64,000 bases of DNA, taken from the NCBI GenBank assembly GCA_947629575.1, contig CANREF010000002.1:124001-188000 (forward strand), read 5' to 3'. Below are positions 1,061 to 34,309 of the stretch, piece after piece. How positions within the stretch are numbered: position 1 is the first letter of the stretch; every line of letters begins with the position of its first letter. The position numbers were made by a program, and so were the translations under genes. Source of the DNA: an uncultured Clostridia bacterium (GTDB lineage: Bacteria > Bacillota > Clostridia > Christensenellales > Borkfalkiaceae). The notes below the pieces were generated by a model, which saw only the letters and a list, made by a program, of their open reading frames with translations, searched no databases and had not been told where the DNA came from.

Positions 1061-1847
1061 GGGCTGCTGCCCATGCCTCCACATATTCGGGGGAAGTGAT
1101 CTCACCGAGTTCGCTGTCGATGGTCTCCATCACGCGGGAGAGTTCGGCGAGTTCCGCCTCGTGTTCCGCCACGCCGCGGTCCATGGAATTGATGATCGCA
1201 GTGTTCACGCAGACGACCGCGAGCAGCAGCACGATGACCGCCGTTACCGCCGCCAGAACGAGCTTCGTCTTGAGTGAAAGCGCCGAGAGAAAGTTCCCCT
1301 TCTGCTCCTCCGCCACGTTCCTGTAGAGCATGGTGCGGCGGGTGGGAACGGCGTCCTCGCTCTCCTCCGCGCTCGTCTCGGGAGCCGCGACCGCCTCGGA
1401 GGGCGCTTCGGGCATGGAGGGCGCGGGTTCGACTGCGGGCGCGGCGGGAGCATAGACGCTCGCCTCGATGGTGCTGTCGAGAATGTTCCCGAACAGATTC
1501 TGCTCCATCGGGGGAGCGTAGTCCGTCACGTTCGTATCCAAGTCGCCGAAGCGGCGCATCGGCTGGCCGGGTTTGATGACATAGAAGTCGGCGAGCCGCT
1601 TTGCAGCGCTGGGCGCGTCGGGAGAGTTGGGCACGACGGGAGCGTGATGCTCCTCGGTGTAAGCCCGATAGACGGGGGCTTCCGGCTTGCTGCCGTATTC
1701 CTGTGCGCCCGCCGATGTGTTCGGAAGAATATCTTCGCTGCCTGCAAGCAGAGCGCGCATGCGCTCGGACATCAATCTGCGATGTTCGCGTTCCTCCTCA
1801 CTCATTTCCTGTACAGGCGCTTGCTCCCGTTCCAATACCGAATCCAT
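1044..1847 (-). CDS. FtsL-like bitopic division protein with long N-terminal extension
   Basis: 267 residues with a single membrane segment at about 195-217, followed by a heptad-like stretch (218-250) and a short tail. Position between rsmH and a class B PBP is where ftsL sits in Firmicutes, and topology (cytoplasmic N-terminus, one TM, extracytoplasmic coiled coil) fits FtsL/DivIC. FtsL is usually about 100-130 residues. Here about 190 acidic, Pro/Ala/Glu-rich residues precede the membrane segment and match no domain I know. The ribosome binding site AAGGAGAGAAGG precedes ATG at 1847. The FtsL role is inferred from position and topology, because the sequence itself is not conserved enough to prove it. 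Confidence 0.6.
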   Translation of the reverse strand: MDSVLEREQAPVQEMSEEEREHRRLMSERMRALLAGSEDILPNTSAGAQEYGSKPEAPVYRAYTEEHHAPVVPNSPDAPSAAKRLADFYVIKPGQPMRRFGDLDTNVTDYAPPMEQNLFGNILDSTIEASVYAPAAPAVEPAPSMPEAPSEAVAAPETSAEESEDAVPTRRTMLYRNVAEEQKGNFLSALSLKTKLVLAAVTAVIVLLLAVVCVNTAIINSMDRGVAEHEAELAELSRVMETIDSELGEITSPEYVEAWAAAHGMLG

Positions 1848-1885
1848 TTCCTTCTCTCCTTATACTTATTCGAAAAATGCTGCGT

Positions 1886-28390: not shown

Positions 28391-29007
28391 CTGCTCTCCC
28401 ATTTGTTTCTGCCCGCCGCGCGCACAATGTATTCGATGAGCTGCGTCTTACATTCGAGGATATACACCGATTTCTCTGTGGTGGAGGAATAGAGCATATA
28501 GAAGAATTCCTTTCCCTCGGCGGGCTCGCGGTTGGAGGTTAGATAGATGATCTGCTTCTTCCCCATGCCCGCCGTGACCTGATGAAAGCTGTCGTTGGCG
28601 CACTTGCCCATTTTGAGGATCATGTCGGCGTTGAAGCGCTTATAGAACTTCCGCCGCACGCCGTTGAACACCCTTGAAACACGCAGTTCGTCCTCCACAA
28701 AGATATAGTCGTAGCTCACATTATAGCGGTTTTTGAACTTCCAAAAGAGCGCTCCCGTCCCCGCCATCAGGGCGACAAAGACGAAGTAAGCCGCGATATA
28801 GAAGACGCGCGCCGCGGTATAGACCTGACCCGTTTCTTCATCCACCGTTCCCGCCAAAACAATGGGAACGTAATTGAACGCAAAGGCGACCATGAGCGCC
28901 GCCACCACAAAGGCGATGATCGCGATCACGCGGAACGCCGTGTACCACTTTGCCTCGGTAACGCCGCGCGCAGGCGTCGCGCTCTCCTCATACAATCCCT
29001 CTCTCAA
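28387..29007 (-). CDS. Two-pass membrane protein of unknown function
   Basis: 206 residues. Two hydrophobic helices (about 24-46 and 68-92), then a soluble C-terminal half (YDYIFVEDELRVSRVF, then FYMLYSSTTEKSVYI) that looks like a small beta-rich PH-like or DUF6106-like domain; I cannot name it firmly. The start codon is TTG at 29007, sharing bases with the carB-dapF-like stop, with GGGGAGG inside the end of that gene, so translation is coupled to the fusion protein. Its context between CarB and the desulfurase gives no clear role. Confidence 0.6.
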   Translation of the reverse strand: MREGLYEESATPARGVTEAKWYTAFRVIAIIAFVVAALMVAFAFNYVPIVLAGTVDEETGQVYTAARVFYIAAYFVFVALMAGTGALFWKFKNRYNVSYDYIFVEDELRVSRVFNGVRRKFYKRFNADMILKMGKCANDSFHQVTAGMGKKQIIYLTSNREPAEGKEFFYMLYSSTTEKSVYILECKTQLIEYIVRAAGRNKWESR

Positions 29008-32000
29008 AATTCGATCCTCCCCGTATAAACCTTTTTGACGCCCCCCGTGAGGGTGATCGTCCCGTCCTTTTTACAGCGCACGATGAGGTCTCCCCCCTTC
29101 GCCTTCACCGTGACGTCGGTATCCGCCTCGCACAGTCCCCGCTTCACGCAGGCATAGACGGCCGCAGCCGCACCCGTGCCGCTGGCGTATGTTTCGCCGT
29201 TCCCCTGCTCGAAGGCACGCATCTTCACCGTGACGCGGTTGACGGGCCTGACGACTTCGAGGTCGGGCTTTATGGGAAGCGCCCCGTCGCCGAGAACGCG
29301 CAATTCGTCCTCTTTTAGGTCGCGCGCGTCCACCTGCTCGTCGAAGATAACGCAGTGCCTTCCCTCGAGCTTGACGAAGGAATGATCCTTCCCGCTCTCC
29401 CGAAGGTAGCGGGCAAAGGAGGAGTCCGTCACGTGGGAATCGTCCGCCGCGCCGAGCTCCACGCTCGCCGAGGAGACGCCCCCGCCGAAGGAATAGGCGG
29501 TCACCTTGCGCACGCCGTCTATGGTCTCCACCGTCATGTGTTCGCCCGCGAGTTTCCCGTCGCACAGATATTTCGCCACACAGCGGATGGCGTTGGAGGC
29601 GTTCAGCCCCTCGCTGCCGTCCTGATTGAATACCCTGAGCTTATAGTCGGCGATCTCGGAGCGCTCCACGAGCACGATGCCCACCCCGCCGATGCCGTAG
29701 TGCCGCGACACAAAGTTGATCGCGAGCGATTCGGGACAGGTGATCTCCCCGTCCATATTGTCGAACAGGATATAGTCGTTCCCGCACGACTGCATCTTGA
29801 CGAACCCGAGCGAGAGCTTGTGCTTGCGCAGATGATTGATGTCCACGAGTTCGGTGTTGTATTCGGTGAATTTGCTCGCGATGATGTCGCACAGGGCGTT
29901 CGCCGTATCGAGGGAAGTGAGCACGGTAACGCCGAGCAGTACCGCATGATGATGAAGTTCGATGTAGTCGTTGATGGAATCGACGTCCGTCTTTCCCGTA
30001 TAGATGATATAATCTATCTTACCTTCGTCCATAAGCCCCGAGACCTGCTTGGTCGCCTTGAGCCGCTCGACGACGGTGACGTCGATCCCGAGCGCTTCGA
30101 TCACCTTCGCAGTCCCCGCCGTCGCATAGAGGCGGCAGCCGAGGTCGGCAAACTTTTTGGCGATGGAGACGATCTCGGGCTTGTCCTGATCGTTGATGGT
30201 AAAGTACACCCCGACGGGCTTTTCCTTTGTGGGATGACACATCTTGAACCCCGCCGAGACGAGCCCCTTGAAGAGGGCCTCCTCTATGGTCTTGCCGATG
30301 CCGAGCACCTCTCCCGTGGACTTCATCTCCGGTCCGAGCTGGGAGTTGACGTCGTTGAGTTTTTCAAAGGAAAATACGGGAACTTTGACCGCCACATAGG
30401 GAGAATCGGGGTAAAGTCCCCTTCCATAGCCCAGTTTTTTGAGCTTTGCGCCCGCCATGATGCGGGTCGCGAGTTCCACCATCGGCACGCCCGTCACCTT
30501 GGAGATGTAGGGAACGGTGCGGCTCGCGCGGGGGTTCACCTCAATGACATAGAGCTTCTCCTCATGGATGAGATATTGAATGTTAATGAGCCCCTTCGTC
30601 TTGAGTTCGAGGGCAAGGCGGGTGGAAACTTCCACGATGCGCGCCTTCATCGCGTCCGAGAGATGATAGGGCGGATAAACCGCAATGGAATCCCCCGAGT
30701 GCACGCCCGCGCGCTCCACGTGCTGCATGATGCCGGGGATGAGCACGTCCGCGCCGTCCGAAATGGCGTCCACCTCGAGCTCGCTCCCCATGAGATATTT
30801 GTCGCACAAAACAGGATTTTCTATCTTCTGCGCAAGAATAACGTCCATATAGCGGGAGATGTCGTTTTCGGTGAAGGCTATGGTCATATTCTGCCCGCCG
30901 ATGACATAGCTCGGGCGGAGCAGCACGGGAAAGCCGAGCTGCTGTGCGGCGCTCAGCGCCTCCTCCTTGGTCATGACGGTAAGCCCCTTGGGGCGGGCGA
31001 TCCCGATGCGTTCGAGGAGCTCGTCGAAGCGTTCCCGATCCTCCGCGACGTCCACGCTGTCCGCGCTCGTCCCGAGGATCTTCACTCCCCTCTTCGCAAG
31101 ATAGCCGCACAGCTTGATCGCCGTCTGCCCGCCGAAGGTGACGACGACGCCGTAGGGCCTTTCCACGTCGATGACGTTCTGCACGTCCTCGGGGGTGAGA
31201 GATTCAAAATAGAGCCTGTCCGCCGTGTCGAAATCGGTCGAGACCGTCTCGGGATTATTGTTGATGATGATCACTTCGAAGCCGAGCTCTTTGAGCGTCC
31301 ACACGCAGTGCACGGAGGAATAGTCGAACTCGATCCCCTGCCCGATGCGGATAGGTCCAGAGCCGATGACGATCACCCGCTTTTTACCGTTCTTCTTGCT
31401 CTCCTCCACGAACGGAACTGCCTCGTCGTGCAAAATTTCGTCATACGTAGAGTAAAAATATGGCGTTTGCGCCGAAAACTCCGCGGCACAGGTATCCACC
31501 ATTTTGAACACCGCTCTGCGGTGAGGAACTCTGTTTTTGCTCAAAATTTCGAGCGTTGCATCGGTGAAGCCGAGCTTCTTGCCCGTGAGATATTCCCTTG
31601 CGGTGAGCTTTCTGCCCGCGATGTGTTCCTCATATTCCGCAAGGTTTCCGAGCTTGCACAGAAACCAGCGGTCGATGCCCGTGACGGAGAAAATTTCGTC
31701 GGGCGTGACGCCCGCCTTCAGGGCGGCGTACACGACAAAGAGCCGCTCATCCGTCGTCTTGTGCAGTTCCAAGAGCAGTTCTTCCCTGTTCATGTGGGAG
31801 AACTTGGGCGCGTTGAGGGTGGAAAGCCCGATCTCCGCGCCGCGGACCGCCTTCATGATCGCCTGCTCGAAGGAAGCGCCGATCGCCATGACCTCCCCCG
31901 TCGCCTTCATGCGAGAGCCCAAGCCCCGCTTGGCATACAAAAATTTATCGAAGGGCCACTTGGGGAGCTTGACGACTACATAGTCGAGCGCGGGCTCGAA

Positions 32001-33035
32001 GCAGGCATAGGTCTTGCCTGTGACGTCGTTTTTGATCTCGTCGAGAGTATAGCCGAGGGCGATCTTGGTCGCCACCTTTGCAATGGGATAGCCCGTCGCC
32101 TTGCTCGCGAGGGCGGAGGAGCGCGAAACGCGGGGGTTGACTTCGATGACCGCGTATTCGAAACTCGTGGGGTGCAGGGCGAATTGGCAGTTACAGCCCC
32201 CCTCAATGCCGAGCTCGCTGATGATGTCGAGAGAGGCGGTGCGGAGCATCTGATATTCCTTGTCGGAAAGGGTGACCGCGGGCGCGATGACAATGGAATC
32301 CCCCGTGTGCACGCCAACGGGGTCGAAGTTCTCCATGGAACAGACGGTGATGACGTTCCCCTTCCCGTCGCGCAAGACTTCAAACTCGATCTCCTTCCAG
32401 CCGCCGATGTATTTTTCGATGAGCACCTGTTTGATGGGCGAGAGCATGAGCCCGTTATGGGAGATGAGGCGAAGTTCCTCTTCGGTATATGCAACGCCGC
32501 CGCCCGCGCCGCCGAGGGTGAACGCGGGACGCACGATGACGGGATAGGCGAGCTTTTCGGCGATCGAAACGCATTCCTCCACCGTGTAGGCGATATCCGA
32601 AGGGACGACGGGCTGACCGATCTTCTGCATGGTCTCTTTGAAGAGTTCCCGATCTTCGGAGCGGTCGATAGCGTCGAGCTTTGTGCCGATGAGCTTGACC
32701 CCCCATTCGTCGAGGAAGCCGTCTTTGGCGAGCTTACAGCCCATGGTGAGCCCCGTCTGTCCCCCCAAAGAGGCGAGGAGAGAGTCGGGACGTTCCTTGA
32801 TGATGATGCGCTTTAAGCTGTCCTCGGTGAGAGGCTCGAGATAGATCTCGTCGGCGAGCATCCTGTCCGTCATAATGGTGGCGGGATTGGAATTGCACAA
32901 AACGACGTTGACGCCCGCATCCTTGAGGACGCGGCACGCCTGCGCGCCCGCATAGTCGAATTCCGCCGCCTGCCCGATGACGATGGGTCCCGAGCCGATA
33001 ACGAGAACTTTTTTGATGTCATTACGCTTTGGCAT
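29004..33035 (-). CDS. carB: Carbamoyl-phosphate synthase large subunit fused to a DapF-like domain
   Basis: 1343 residues; CarB is normally about 1060-1080. Residues 1 to about 1065 are a full CarB: LVIGSGPIVIGQAAEFDYAG, two ATP-grasp halves (MKATGEVMAIG in the first, MKSTGEVLGIG in the second), and a C-terminal MGS-type allosteric domain (FTINDQDKPEIVSIAKKF). After the linker VDINHLRKHKLS, residues about 1076-1343 match diaminopimelate epimerase (FVKMQSCGNDYILFDN, NQDGSEG, ETYASGTGA). DapF's catalytic cysteines are absent: CGNG is ASNA (1146-1149) and ACGTGA is ASGTGA (Ser 1285). ERGxGET also reads EQGNGET. A non-racemising partner or regulatory domain is likely. Start ATG 33035 behind GAGGAAG. 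Confidence 0.92.
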   Translation of the reverse strand: MPKRNDIKKVLVIGSGPIVIGQAAEFDYAGAQACRVLKDAGVNVVLCNSNPATIMTDRMLADEIYLEPLTEDSLKRIIIKERPDSLLASLGGQTGLTMGCKLAKDGFLDEWGVKLIGTKLDAIDRSEDRELFKETMQKIGQPVVPSDIAYTVEECVSIAEKLAYPVIVRPAFTLGGAGGGVAYTEEELRLISHNGLMLSPIKQVLIEKYIGGWKEIEFEVLRDGKGNVITVCSMENFDPVGVHTGDSIVIAPAVTLSDKEYQMLRTASLDIISELGIEGGCNCQFALHPTSFEYAVIEVNPRVSRSSALASKATGYPIAKVATKIALGYTLDEIKNDVTGKTYACFEPALDYVVVKLPKWPFDKFLYAKRGLGSRMKATGEVMAIGASFEQAIMKAVRGAEIGLSTLNAPKFSHMNREELLLELHKTTDERLFVVYAALKAGVTPDEIFSVTGIDRWFLCKLGNLAEYEEHIAGRKLTAREYLTGKKLGFTDATLEILSKNRVPHRRAVFKMVDTCAAEFSAQTPYFYSTYDEILHDEAVPFVEESKKNGKKRVIVIGSGPIRIGQGIEFDYSSVHCVWTLKELGFEVIIINNNPETVSTDFDTADRLYFESLTPEDVQNVIDVERPYGVVVTFGGQTAIKLCGYLAKRGVKILGTSADSVDVAEDRERFDELLERIGIARPKGLTVMTKEEALSAAQQLGFPVLLRPSYVIGGQNMTIAFTENDISRYMDVILAQKIENPVLCDKYLMGSELEVDAISDGADVLIPGIMQHVERAGVHSGDSIAVYPPYHLSDAMKARIVEVSTRLALELKTKGLINIQYLIHEEKLYVIEVNPRASRTVPYISKVTGVPMVELATRIMAGAKLKKLGYGRGLYPDSPYVAVKVPVFSFEKLNDVNSQLGPEMKSTGEVLGIGKTIEEALFKGLVSAGFKMCHPTKEKPVGVYFTINDQDKPEIVSIAKKFADLGCRLYATAGTAKVIEALGIDVTVVERLKATKQVSGLMDEGKIDYIIYTGKTDVDSINDYIELHHHAVLLGVTVLTSLDTANALCDIIASKFTEYNTELVDINHLRKHKLSLGFVKMQSCGNDYILFDNMDGEITCPESLAINFVSRHYGIGGVGIVLVERSEIADYKLRVFNQDGSEGLNASNAIRCVAKYLCDGKLAGEHMTVETIDGVRKVTAYSFGGGVSSASVELGAADDSHVTDSSFARYLRESGKDHSFVKLEGRHCVIFDEQVDARDLKEDELRVLGDGALPIKPDLEVVRPVNRVTVKMRAFEQGNGETYASGTGAAAAVYACVKRGLCEADTDVTVKAKGGDLIVRCKKDGTITLTGGVKKVYTGRIEF

Positions 33036-33244: not shown

Positions 33245-34309
33245 TTATTGCCCTGCGCTCTTCCCTATTCTTTTCAAAAAATCCGCAAAGAGAAATGCGG
33301 CGTCGCGCGGACCGCTGCATGCCTCGGGATGAAATTGCACCGTTGTGGCGTTCAGTTCGGGATAGTCTATCCCTTCGCAAGTGCCGTCGTTGGCGTTGAT
33401 GTAGGAGAGCGTTCCCGTCTTCAGAGAACTTGAAACGACCTCATAACCGTGGTTTTGGCTCGTGATGAACACCCTCCCCGTCTTGAGATCCTTCACGGGT
33501 TGATTGCTTCCGCGGTGTCCGTACTTCATCTTGCGCGTCTCCCCGCCCATTGCAAGGGCAAAGAGCTGGTGTCCCAAACAGATGCCGAAGATCGGCACTT
33601 TGCCCGCAAGCTCTCTGATATTTTGAATAATCTCCACGTTCTCGGCAGGGTCTCCCGGGCCGTTCGCGAGCATCACCCCGTCGGGATGAAGGGCGAGCAC
33701 ATCCCCCGCCGCCGTAAAGGCGGGCACTACCGTCACGCGGCAGCCCCGCTTCACGAGCTCCCGCTCGATGTTCATCTTTGCGCCGAAGTCATACAAAACG
33801 ACGTGCACCTTCCCCTCTCCATAGACCTCTATCCTGTCCGAAGAGACGGAGCGGACGGCGTCGCGCACGCGGTAGCGCTTCAATGCGTCGAAGTCATGGA
33901 AGGGCTTGAAGGAGACCGCCGCGTTCATCACCCCCGCCTCCCGCACCGTGCGGGTGAGTTCGCGGGTATCCACGCCGTACACAGCGGGAATGTTCTGCTG
34001 TTTCAGATAGAGTTCGAGCGCGCCCTCCGAACGGAAATTGGACGGGTCGTCGCACTTCTCCCGCACGATATAGGCGGTGACATGGCTCTTCTTGCTCTCA
34101 AAGTCGGGCGGGATCACACCGTAATTGCCGATGAGCGGGAACGTCTGGGTGACGATCTGTCCGTAGTAGCTCGGGTCGGTGAGGGTCTCGAGATACCCCG
34201 TCATGCCCGTGGTGAATACGAGCTCTCCGACCGTCTCCCGCTCTGCGCCGAAGGAATATCCCTCGAACACTCTTCCGTTTTCCAGTGTGATATAAGCGCG
34301 TTTTTCCAT
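33245..34309 (-). CDS. carA: Carbamoyl-phosphate synthase small subunit
   Basis: 354 residues. N-terminal CPSase_sm domain (ETVGELVFTTGMTGYLETL, DPSYYGQIVTQTFPLIGNYG) and C-terminal class I glutaminase with nucleophile in FGICLGHQ and the His-Glu pair in QFHPEA. Supplies ammonia from glutamine to CarB for arginine and pyrimidine synthesis. ATG at 34309 follows AGGAGAAAG. Lies nine bases behind an acyl-ACP thioesterase, an unusual neighbour. Confidence 0.96.
   Translation of the reverse strand: MEKRAYITLENGRVFEGYSFGAERETVGELVFTTGMTGYLETLTDPSYYGQIVTQTFPLIGNYGVIPPDFESKKSHVTAYIVREKCDDPSNFRSEGALELYLKQQNIPAVYGVDTRELTRTVREAGVMNAAVSFKPFHDFDALKRYRVRDAVRSVSSDRIEVYGEGKVHVVLYDFGAKMNIERELVKRGCRVTVVPAFTAAGDVLALHPDGVMLANGPGDPAENVEIIQNIRELAGKVPIFGICLGHQLFALAMGGETRKMKYGHRGSNQPVKDLKTGRVFITSQNHGYEVVSSSLKTGTLSYINANDGTCEGIDYPELNATTVQFHPEACSGPRDAAFLFADFLKRIGKSAGQ

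Follow-up and report, generated by a model that had tools for sequence, protein, structure and literature searches.

A pseudo-epimerase tail on the large subunit of carbamoyl-phosphate synthase in Clostridia

The fused gene and its parts

The window analysed here, a stretch of 64,000 nucleotides from an uncultured Clostridia bacterium of the Borkfalkiaceae, carries on its minus strand a gene in which a complete large subunit of carbamoyl-phosphate synthase (CPSase), CarB, runs on into a domain related to diaminopimelate epimerase, DapF. The features of the locus, each with its evidence, are as follows.

33245..34309, minus strand: carA, glutaminase subunit, directly upstream of the fused gene (translation)
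29004..33035, minus strand: fused carB-dapF gene, 1343 amino acids, ATG to TGA (open frame and profile matches)
29835..33035, minus strand: CarB part, residues 1-1067 (NCBIfam and Pfam matches, alignment with E. coli CarB)
29916..30176, minus strand: allosteric MGS-like domain within CarB, residues 954-1040, PF02142 (Pfam)
29808..29855, minus strand: junction TELVDINHLRKHKLSL, residues 1061-1076 (comparison with unfused CarBs)
29013..29804, minus strand: DapF-like pseudo-epimerase domain, TIGR00652, residues 1078-1341 (NCBIfam, PDB sequence matches, AlphaFold2)
29598-29600, minus strand: Ala1146, where E. coli DapF has the first catalytic Cys, Cys73 (alignment and codons)
29361-29363, minus strand: Gly1225, replacing the substrate Asn of GNPH (alignment and codons)
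29262-29264, minus strand: Asp1258, replacing the substrate Asn of NTEF (alignment and codons)
29205-29207, minus strand: Gln1277, replacing the substrate Arg of ERGxGET (alignment and codons)
29181-29183, minus strand: Ser1285 in place of the second catalytic Cys, Cys217 (alignment and codons)

The frame starts with an ATG at 33033-33035, ends with a TGA at 29004-29006 and contains neither an inner stop nor an N, and NCBIfam and Pfam agree on its composition; the single open frame described in an earlier note on this DNA, leading from a complete CarB into a DapF-like domain, was thus recovered over all of its 1343 residues. In the NCBIfam search, the CarB profile NF003671 matched residues 1-1055 at 1440.7 bits and the DapF profile TIGR00652 matched residues 1078-1341 at 154.8 bits (cut-off 114.65), and the Pfam search gave the same two assignments. 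The fused protein and E. coli CarB align from the first residue of each, and the domain order of CPSase large subunits, comprising both ATP-grasp halves, the oligomerisation domain and the MGS domain, was found by profiles and alignment. The genome search detected the fused protein as the sole CarB of the window's genome, two other matches of at most 25.2 bits being rejected as a second one. The upstream gene is presumably carA, a name given from a motif in its translation. An open frame of 1153 residues antisense to carB (window 29355-32816, plus strand) is probably a shadow of the codon use of carB, and a search of the window against Rfam at gathering thresholds returned no match.

Homology of the C-terminal domain to DapF, which the earlier note had read from framework motifs, is borne out by the profile score above the curated cut-off, and the domain, when excised, scores 160.1 bits. 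Of its 17 matches among PDB sequences, 16 bear the name DapF and one is an O-ureido-serine racemase; the bifunctional DapF/glutamate racemase profile NF038284 was rejected at 59.4 bits (cut-off 350). We numbered the catalytic cysteines after E. coli DapF, as in the pertinent passages of PMC4227774, and matched the diaminopimelate (DAP) contacts by motif to those given for the C. glutamicum enzyme in passages of PMC5296763. When the codons were read again, both cysteines proved to be gone, A-S-N-A standing at the first catalytic site (29589-29600) and Ser1285 at the second, and the exchange of the substrate Arg for Gln was likewise confirmed. For the tested contacts we use the numbers N11, N64, N157, N190, E208, R209 and T219, which we take to be those of H. 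influenzae DapF; five of the eight contacts tested are kept in the window's domain and the equivalents of N157, N190 and R209 are replaced.

With both cysteines replaced, the window's copy was rejected as an active two-thiol epimerase, and the claim that it could not racemise by the known two-cysteine mechanism stands on the residues read. We are confident that the domain is a DapF homologue that would be unable to use this mechanism. TIGR00652 passes its cut-off on the dead domain, which automatic annotation would call DapF, and pathway reconstructions relying on this profile can therefore be wrong. A separate canonical dapF, for which the earlier note had advised a search, is present in the window's genome (open frame 291, in which both cysteines and all the contacts tested are in place), and no match to Ddh, another route to meso-DAP, was found there.

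An AlphaFold2 model of residues 930-1343 reached a mean pLDDT of 87.3, and 90 or more was attained in 18 of the 28 blocks of ten residues into which the DapF part was divided; the domain is thus predicted to be folded. Its placement against CarB has low confidence in the model: the two linker blocks stand at 64 and 65 and the pTM is 0.70, so that no fixed interface is shown.

Distribution and origin of the fusion

The fusion extends well beyond this assembly. It was found in 47 of the 61 genomes of the window's genus (the window's own included), some copies being fragments at contig ends; 13 of the remaining 14 have no CarB above 36 bits, and in one (G035) CarB is cut by a contig end. With the window's genome counted in each, it occurs in 14 of the 79 genomes of a class sample and in 20 of the 398 of a phylum sample, the latter by junction-spanning matches in frames of 1314-1398 residues, and its named carriers include Ruminococcus albus (L145), Oscillibacter valericigenes (L115), O. 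ruminantium (L117) and Gemmiger sp. An120 (L102). Loss of the first cysteine also recurs in other assemblies, and the recurrence of both features excludes chance or misassembly. Accordingly, an assembly error or a misread stop codon, which the earlier note had named as a possible undoing of the fusion, has a vanishingly small probability, given the frames that span the junction across the phylum and the fused genomes of the genus. The other objection raised there, that relatives might carry separate carB and intact dapF genes at this place, finds no support in the genus: none of the 61 genomes, many of them incomplete, yielded a complete CarB without the DapF domain.

One candidate (L180 in G270) turned out to be a DapF with open sequence upstream and was removed before the counts. 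In the genome of L079 (G101:C92:2464-3267), DapF matches lie in two very long frames, of 1427 and 1097 residues, in addition to a separate one of 365, perhaps representing two fused copies.

Phylogenetic analysis shows a single origin of the fusion. The CarB tree unites the 116 fused rows in a single clade, set off from 27 unfused rows (one change, support 100), and a CarB core tree from which the MGS and DapF parts were removed likewise has its fused rows in one clade; in the DapF tree, the fused domains group together save for one separate gene inside (two changes). The two nearest unfused CarBs (L254, L255) end in VDITKI and a stop, and the fused ones continue VDIN..R into DapF, which places the loss of the stop very close to where the gene would normally end. 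L295 (G428:C4, junction near 1800-1860, minus strand) is a CarB of the fused clade with the stop back at the junction; no DapF was matched in the G428 genome, which has Ddh. This is one secondary loss of the DapF domain, and the domain is therefore not strictly bound to CarB.

Because relatives such as R. albus have a complete active site, mostly as the sole DapF, the ancestral fusion protein was most probably bifunctional. Intact and dead states are scattered on the trees, with 10 to 13 changes (11 on the CarB tree, 10 on the CarB core tree and 13 on later trees), and parsimony on these states cannot separate gain from loss; regain of the cysteine together with a full pocket seems unlikely to us. 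On this pattern the first cysteine was lost repeatedly, and one of the losses lies at the root of a group of 67 sampled CarBs that includes the window's (support 100 in the CarB tree; a 38-row subset has support 100 in the CarB core tree), referred to below as the large dead clade. The first reading of the window had contained neither the repeated loss of the first cysteine nor the intact-epimerase fusions of R. albus and others, nor the losses at Gly1225 and Asp1258.

Catalytic state, other routes to meso-DAP and the ligand pocket

We classed 165 fused domains by their residues; they are distinct by string only, and some near-duplicates may be left among them. Both cysteines and all tested contacts are present in 37, Cys73 is lost but Cys217 retained in 110, both are lost in 16 (the window's among them) and Cys217 alone is lost in two; all 77 separate DapFs examined have both. 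A domain without Cys73 could conceivably use Cys217 to run another reaction, such as an elimination or a one-way epimerisation. Cys217 is indeed retained in 110 of the 126 fused domains without Cys73, and a Cys to Thr exchange in an Asp/Glu racemase is described, in passages of PMC8142540, as yielding a one-way enzyme. The replacements of Cys73 in the 110 domains are, however, mostly Ala (92), followed by Gly (11), Ser (4) and Phe, Thr and Leu (one each), which speaks of a thiol lost rather than of a new base chosen, and such chemistry is inapplicable to the window's copy, where Cys217 is also gone; we consider it highly improbable.

Other routes to meso-DAP were counted in 97 distinct genomes, representing 50 sampled genomes, drawn at a minimum completeness of 95 (G000 itself is at 94.2%), and 50 of 80 loci; 24 of 74 genome-contig loci, which the dapF search did not cover, were left out, and the separate-dapF counts were tallied by hand. 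Another DapF was absent from 25 of the 28 genomes with an intact fused copy, and a separate DapF was present in 55 of the 69 with a dead one. A later phylum sample added 18 fused genomes: six with an intact copy (one as sole DapF, five with another) and 12 with a dead copy, all 12 with a match to a second DapF. Combined, the intact copy is the sole DapF in 26 of 34 genomes and the dead copy is accompanied by a separate DapF in 67 of 81 (Fisher p 2.4e-9, kinship disregarded). Strong Ddh matches were found in 11 of the 14 dead-copy genomes without a separate DapF and neither route in three, so that 78 of the 81 have another route to meso-DAP, be it a separate dapF or Ddh. Those three are G106, G250 and G306, whose assemblies may be incomplete. 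Five phylogenetically independent pairs lay on supported branches, of which on average 2.4 went the same way, 0.0 the opposite way and 2.5 showed no difference, which is not significant.

What can safely be stated holds in one direction: a dead copy is accompanied by another route to meso-DAP. A strict rule that the intact fused copy is the sole DapF was discarded, being broken by eight of the 34 intact copies, five of them among the six of the later phylum sample, and Ddh was discarded as the sole cause of cysteine loss, strong matches to it being present also in 10 of 16 genomes in which the intact copy is the sole DapF.

The frequent company of a separate DapF admits another explanation, in which the dead domain pairs with that active enzyme and holds it on the CPSase, the partner being DapF and no metabolite. 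DapFs are homodimers with a conserved interface, according to passages of PMC5296763, and the 67 dead copies with a separate DapF would have such a partner at hand; yet 11 genomes with a dead fusion have Ddh and no detected separate DapF, and the separate DapFs stem from several distant clades. We judge this arrangement improbable.

After the loss of Cys73, the pocket and Cys217 mostly stay together in the aligned residues. All eight tested DAP contacts are kept in 55 of the 67 rows of the large dead clade, each of the 55 with Cys217, and eight of the 12 rows that have lost contacts have lost Cys217 as well; 10 of the 12 scattered dead rows have all contacts, eight of these with Cys217. The exceptions (L043, L200 and L277-L279) have lost both cysteines and keep only the contacts. 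Among columns near-invariant in working DapFs, nine ligand columns are kept at 0.94 on average in the class that lost Cys73, compared with 0.92 for 37 other columns, whereas in the class that lost both cysteines the values are 0.72 and 0.80. Retention of the pocket and Cys217 without Cys73 fits selection for ligand binding without epimerisation.

The median ratio of DapF to CarB distances, after removal of rows known to be the same gene, is 1.82 for intact domains, 3.13 for those without Cys73 and 6.75 for those without both, indicating that constraint falls stepwise. In a control of eight genomes of the window's genus (28 pairs), the median was 6.06 for the fused domain versus 4.63 for the working separate DapF. 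The domain is under purifying selection in the window's twig: among the pairs listed, which are the 12 of lowest dS per group, dN/dS is 0.06-0.20 between the window's close kin (L006-L010), and two listed pairs with the window itself gave 0.26 and 0.44.

These values bear on the possibility that, once Cys73 was lost, the domain became a structural passenger with no role for a ligand, on which the folding, solubility or oligomer state of CarB depends. Such a role would agree with the low dN/dS among the window's close kin, whose pocket is gone, and with the shedding of the domain at the junction in G428, which has Ddh; it agrees poorly with the 55 CarBs of the large dead clade that keep the eight contacts and Cys217, as mere folding would need fewer. 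For the family as a whole we deem it rather unlikely, albeit deserving of serious consideration.

The nucleotide-effector site of CarB and the proposed role of the domain

According to passages of PMC6245113, UMP inhibits E. coli CPSase and both IMP and ornithine activate it; Thr977 and Lys993 are important for UMP and Thr1042 for ornithine. With the E. coli MGS numbering set on the PDB sequence alignment, the window's CarB has R991, Y1012 and H1028 at K993, N1015 and R1030, respectively, and lacks the nucleotide-effector signature of the MGS domain, which is not universal in CPSases. Arg1030 is kept in all 27 unfused, all 37 fused intact and all 12 scattered dead proteins and in one of the 67 of the large dead clade; the corresponding fractions are 20/27, 37/37, 12/12 and 16/67 for Lys993 and 26/27, 37/37, 11/12 and 20/67 for Lys954. 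In 12 further dead copies from the later phylum sample, the Arg1030-Arg1031 loop is kept. The scattered dead lineages have thus retained the signature, which counts against the effector reading. The change of the signature and the loss of Cys73 fall, once, on the same stem branch of the large dead clade, which would suggest a hand-over of effector control; being a single event, the joint change could be a coincidence. Thr974 and Thr977 are each kept in 66 of the 67 proteins of this clade and, as seen above, Lys993 is not constant even in unfused CarBs, so that loss of nucleotide binding is not proven.

We give somewhat better than even chances to a history in which a CarB with a pseudo-epimerase tail was once bifunctional and then turned into an effector module in the large dead clade and a structural element in the window's twig. 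The carB and dapF genes became one frame once, and the first product would have combined CPSase with a working epimerase. The Cys73 thiol was then repeatedly lost and the domain retained, presumably because a separate DapF or a meso-DAP dehydrogenase could supply meso-DAP. In the large dead clade, the DAP contacts and Cys217 mostly persisted, and the nucleotide-effector signature of CarB disappeared. DapF closes on its ligand, as described in passages of PMC5296763, and a ligand-driven open/closed movement of the domain could be passed to the CPSase through the short junction, whereby the supply of carbamoyl phosphate would be tied to the diaminopimelate pool. We infer regulation of CPSase by the fused domain and, for the large dead clade, favour a DAP-responsive, non-catalytic effector.

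In the window's twig, by contrast, the pocket would have decayed, and the domain would persist chiefly for its part in structure or oligomerisation. The earlier note had suggested a sensor or a scaffold; a DAP sensor is plausible in the wider clade, where the pocket is kept without Cys73, and unlikely for the window's copy, whose pocket lacks three further DAP contacts and for which a scaffold is likelier. More specifically, and only as a tentative proposal that we think possible but doubtful, allosteric control of CPSase in a large clade of Clostridia (Oscillibacter, Gemmiger and kin) may have passed from the UMP/IMP-binding MGS domain to a fused dead DapF reading the DAP pool, and the supply of nucleotides and arginine would thereby be linked with cell-wall synthesis. 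If true, the effector reading would provide a direct link of peptidoglycan and lysine precursors to pyrimidine and arginine supply. The fused DapF domains form, within one protein family, a natural series from a complete active site, through single-residue dead copies with the pocket kept, to dead copies with the pocket gone, and cultured species bring it within reach of assay.

No description of this fusion was among the matches listed in open-access literature for CarB-DapF fusions or DapF pseudoenzymes (titles and starts of abstracts, with subscription papers mostly and preprints entirely outside), and the passages of PMC9026213 matching fused, DapF or CarB do not mention the fusion. Compared with known families, the window's CarB resembles other CarBs (TIGR01369/NF003671) in being full-length, high-scoring, the sole one in its genome and placed beside carA, but differs in its DapF tail of ~270 residues and, in the large dead clade as a whole, in the changed nucleotide signature of the MGS domain. 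Similarly, the fused domain shares with DapF (TIGR00652, PF01678) its length, framework motifs and a score above the curated cut-off, but is fused, has neither cysteine and lacks three DAP contacts, and the same genome has a canonical dapF at another locus.

Among the retrieved loci, seven genomes (L257, L258, L260, L264, L265, L208 and L220) have an unfused carB directly followed by dapF, the gap between the two open frames being about -28 to +51 nt. Here, too, CarB and DapF are physically linked, but as separate genes, belonging to another CarB clade and another DapF clade and with both cysteines present, which means that carB and dapF came to be linked on a second occasion; this hints at a functional tie, although it could be chance. 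The nearest parallel for a regulatory role is E. coli DapF, which, with both cysteines replaced, still binds and activates RppH (PMC4227774, in the passages on this pair). Whereas a free, catalytically able DapF acts there on a Nudix hydrolase, and the control that we propose would be exerted by a fused, naturally dead one on a CPSase, in both cases a DapF fold would control another enzyme with no need for epimerase activity.
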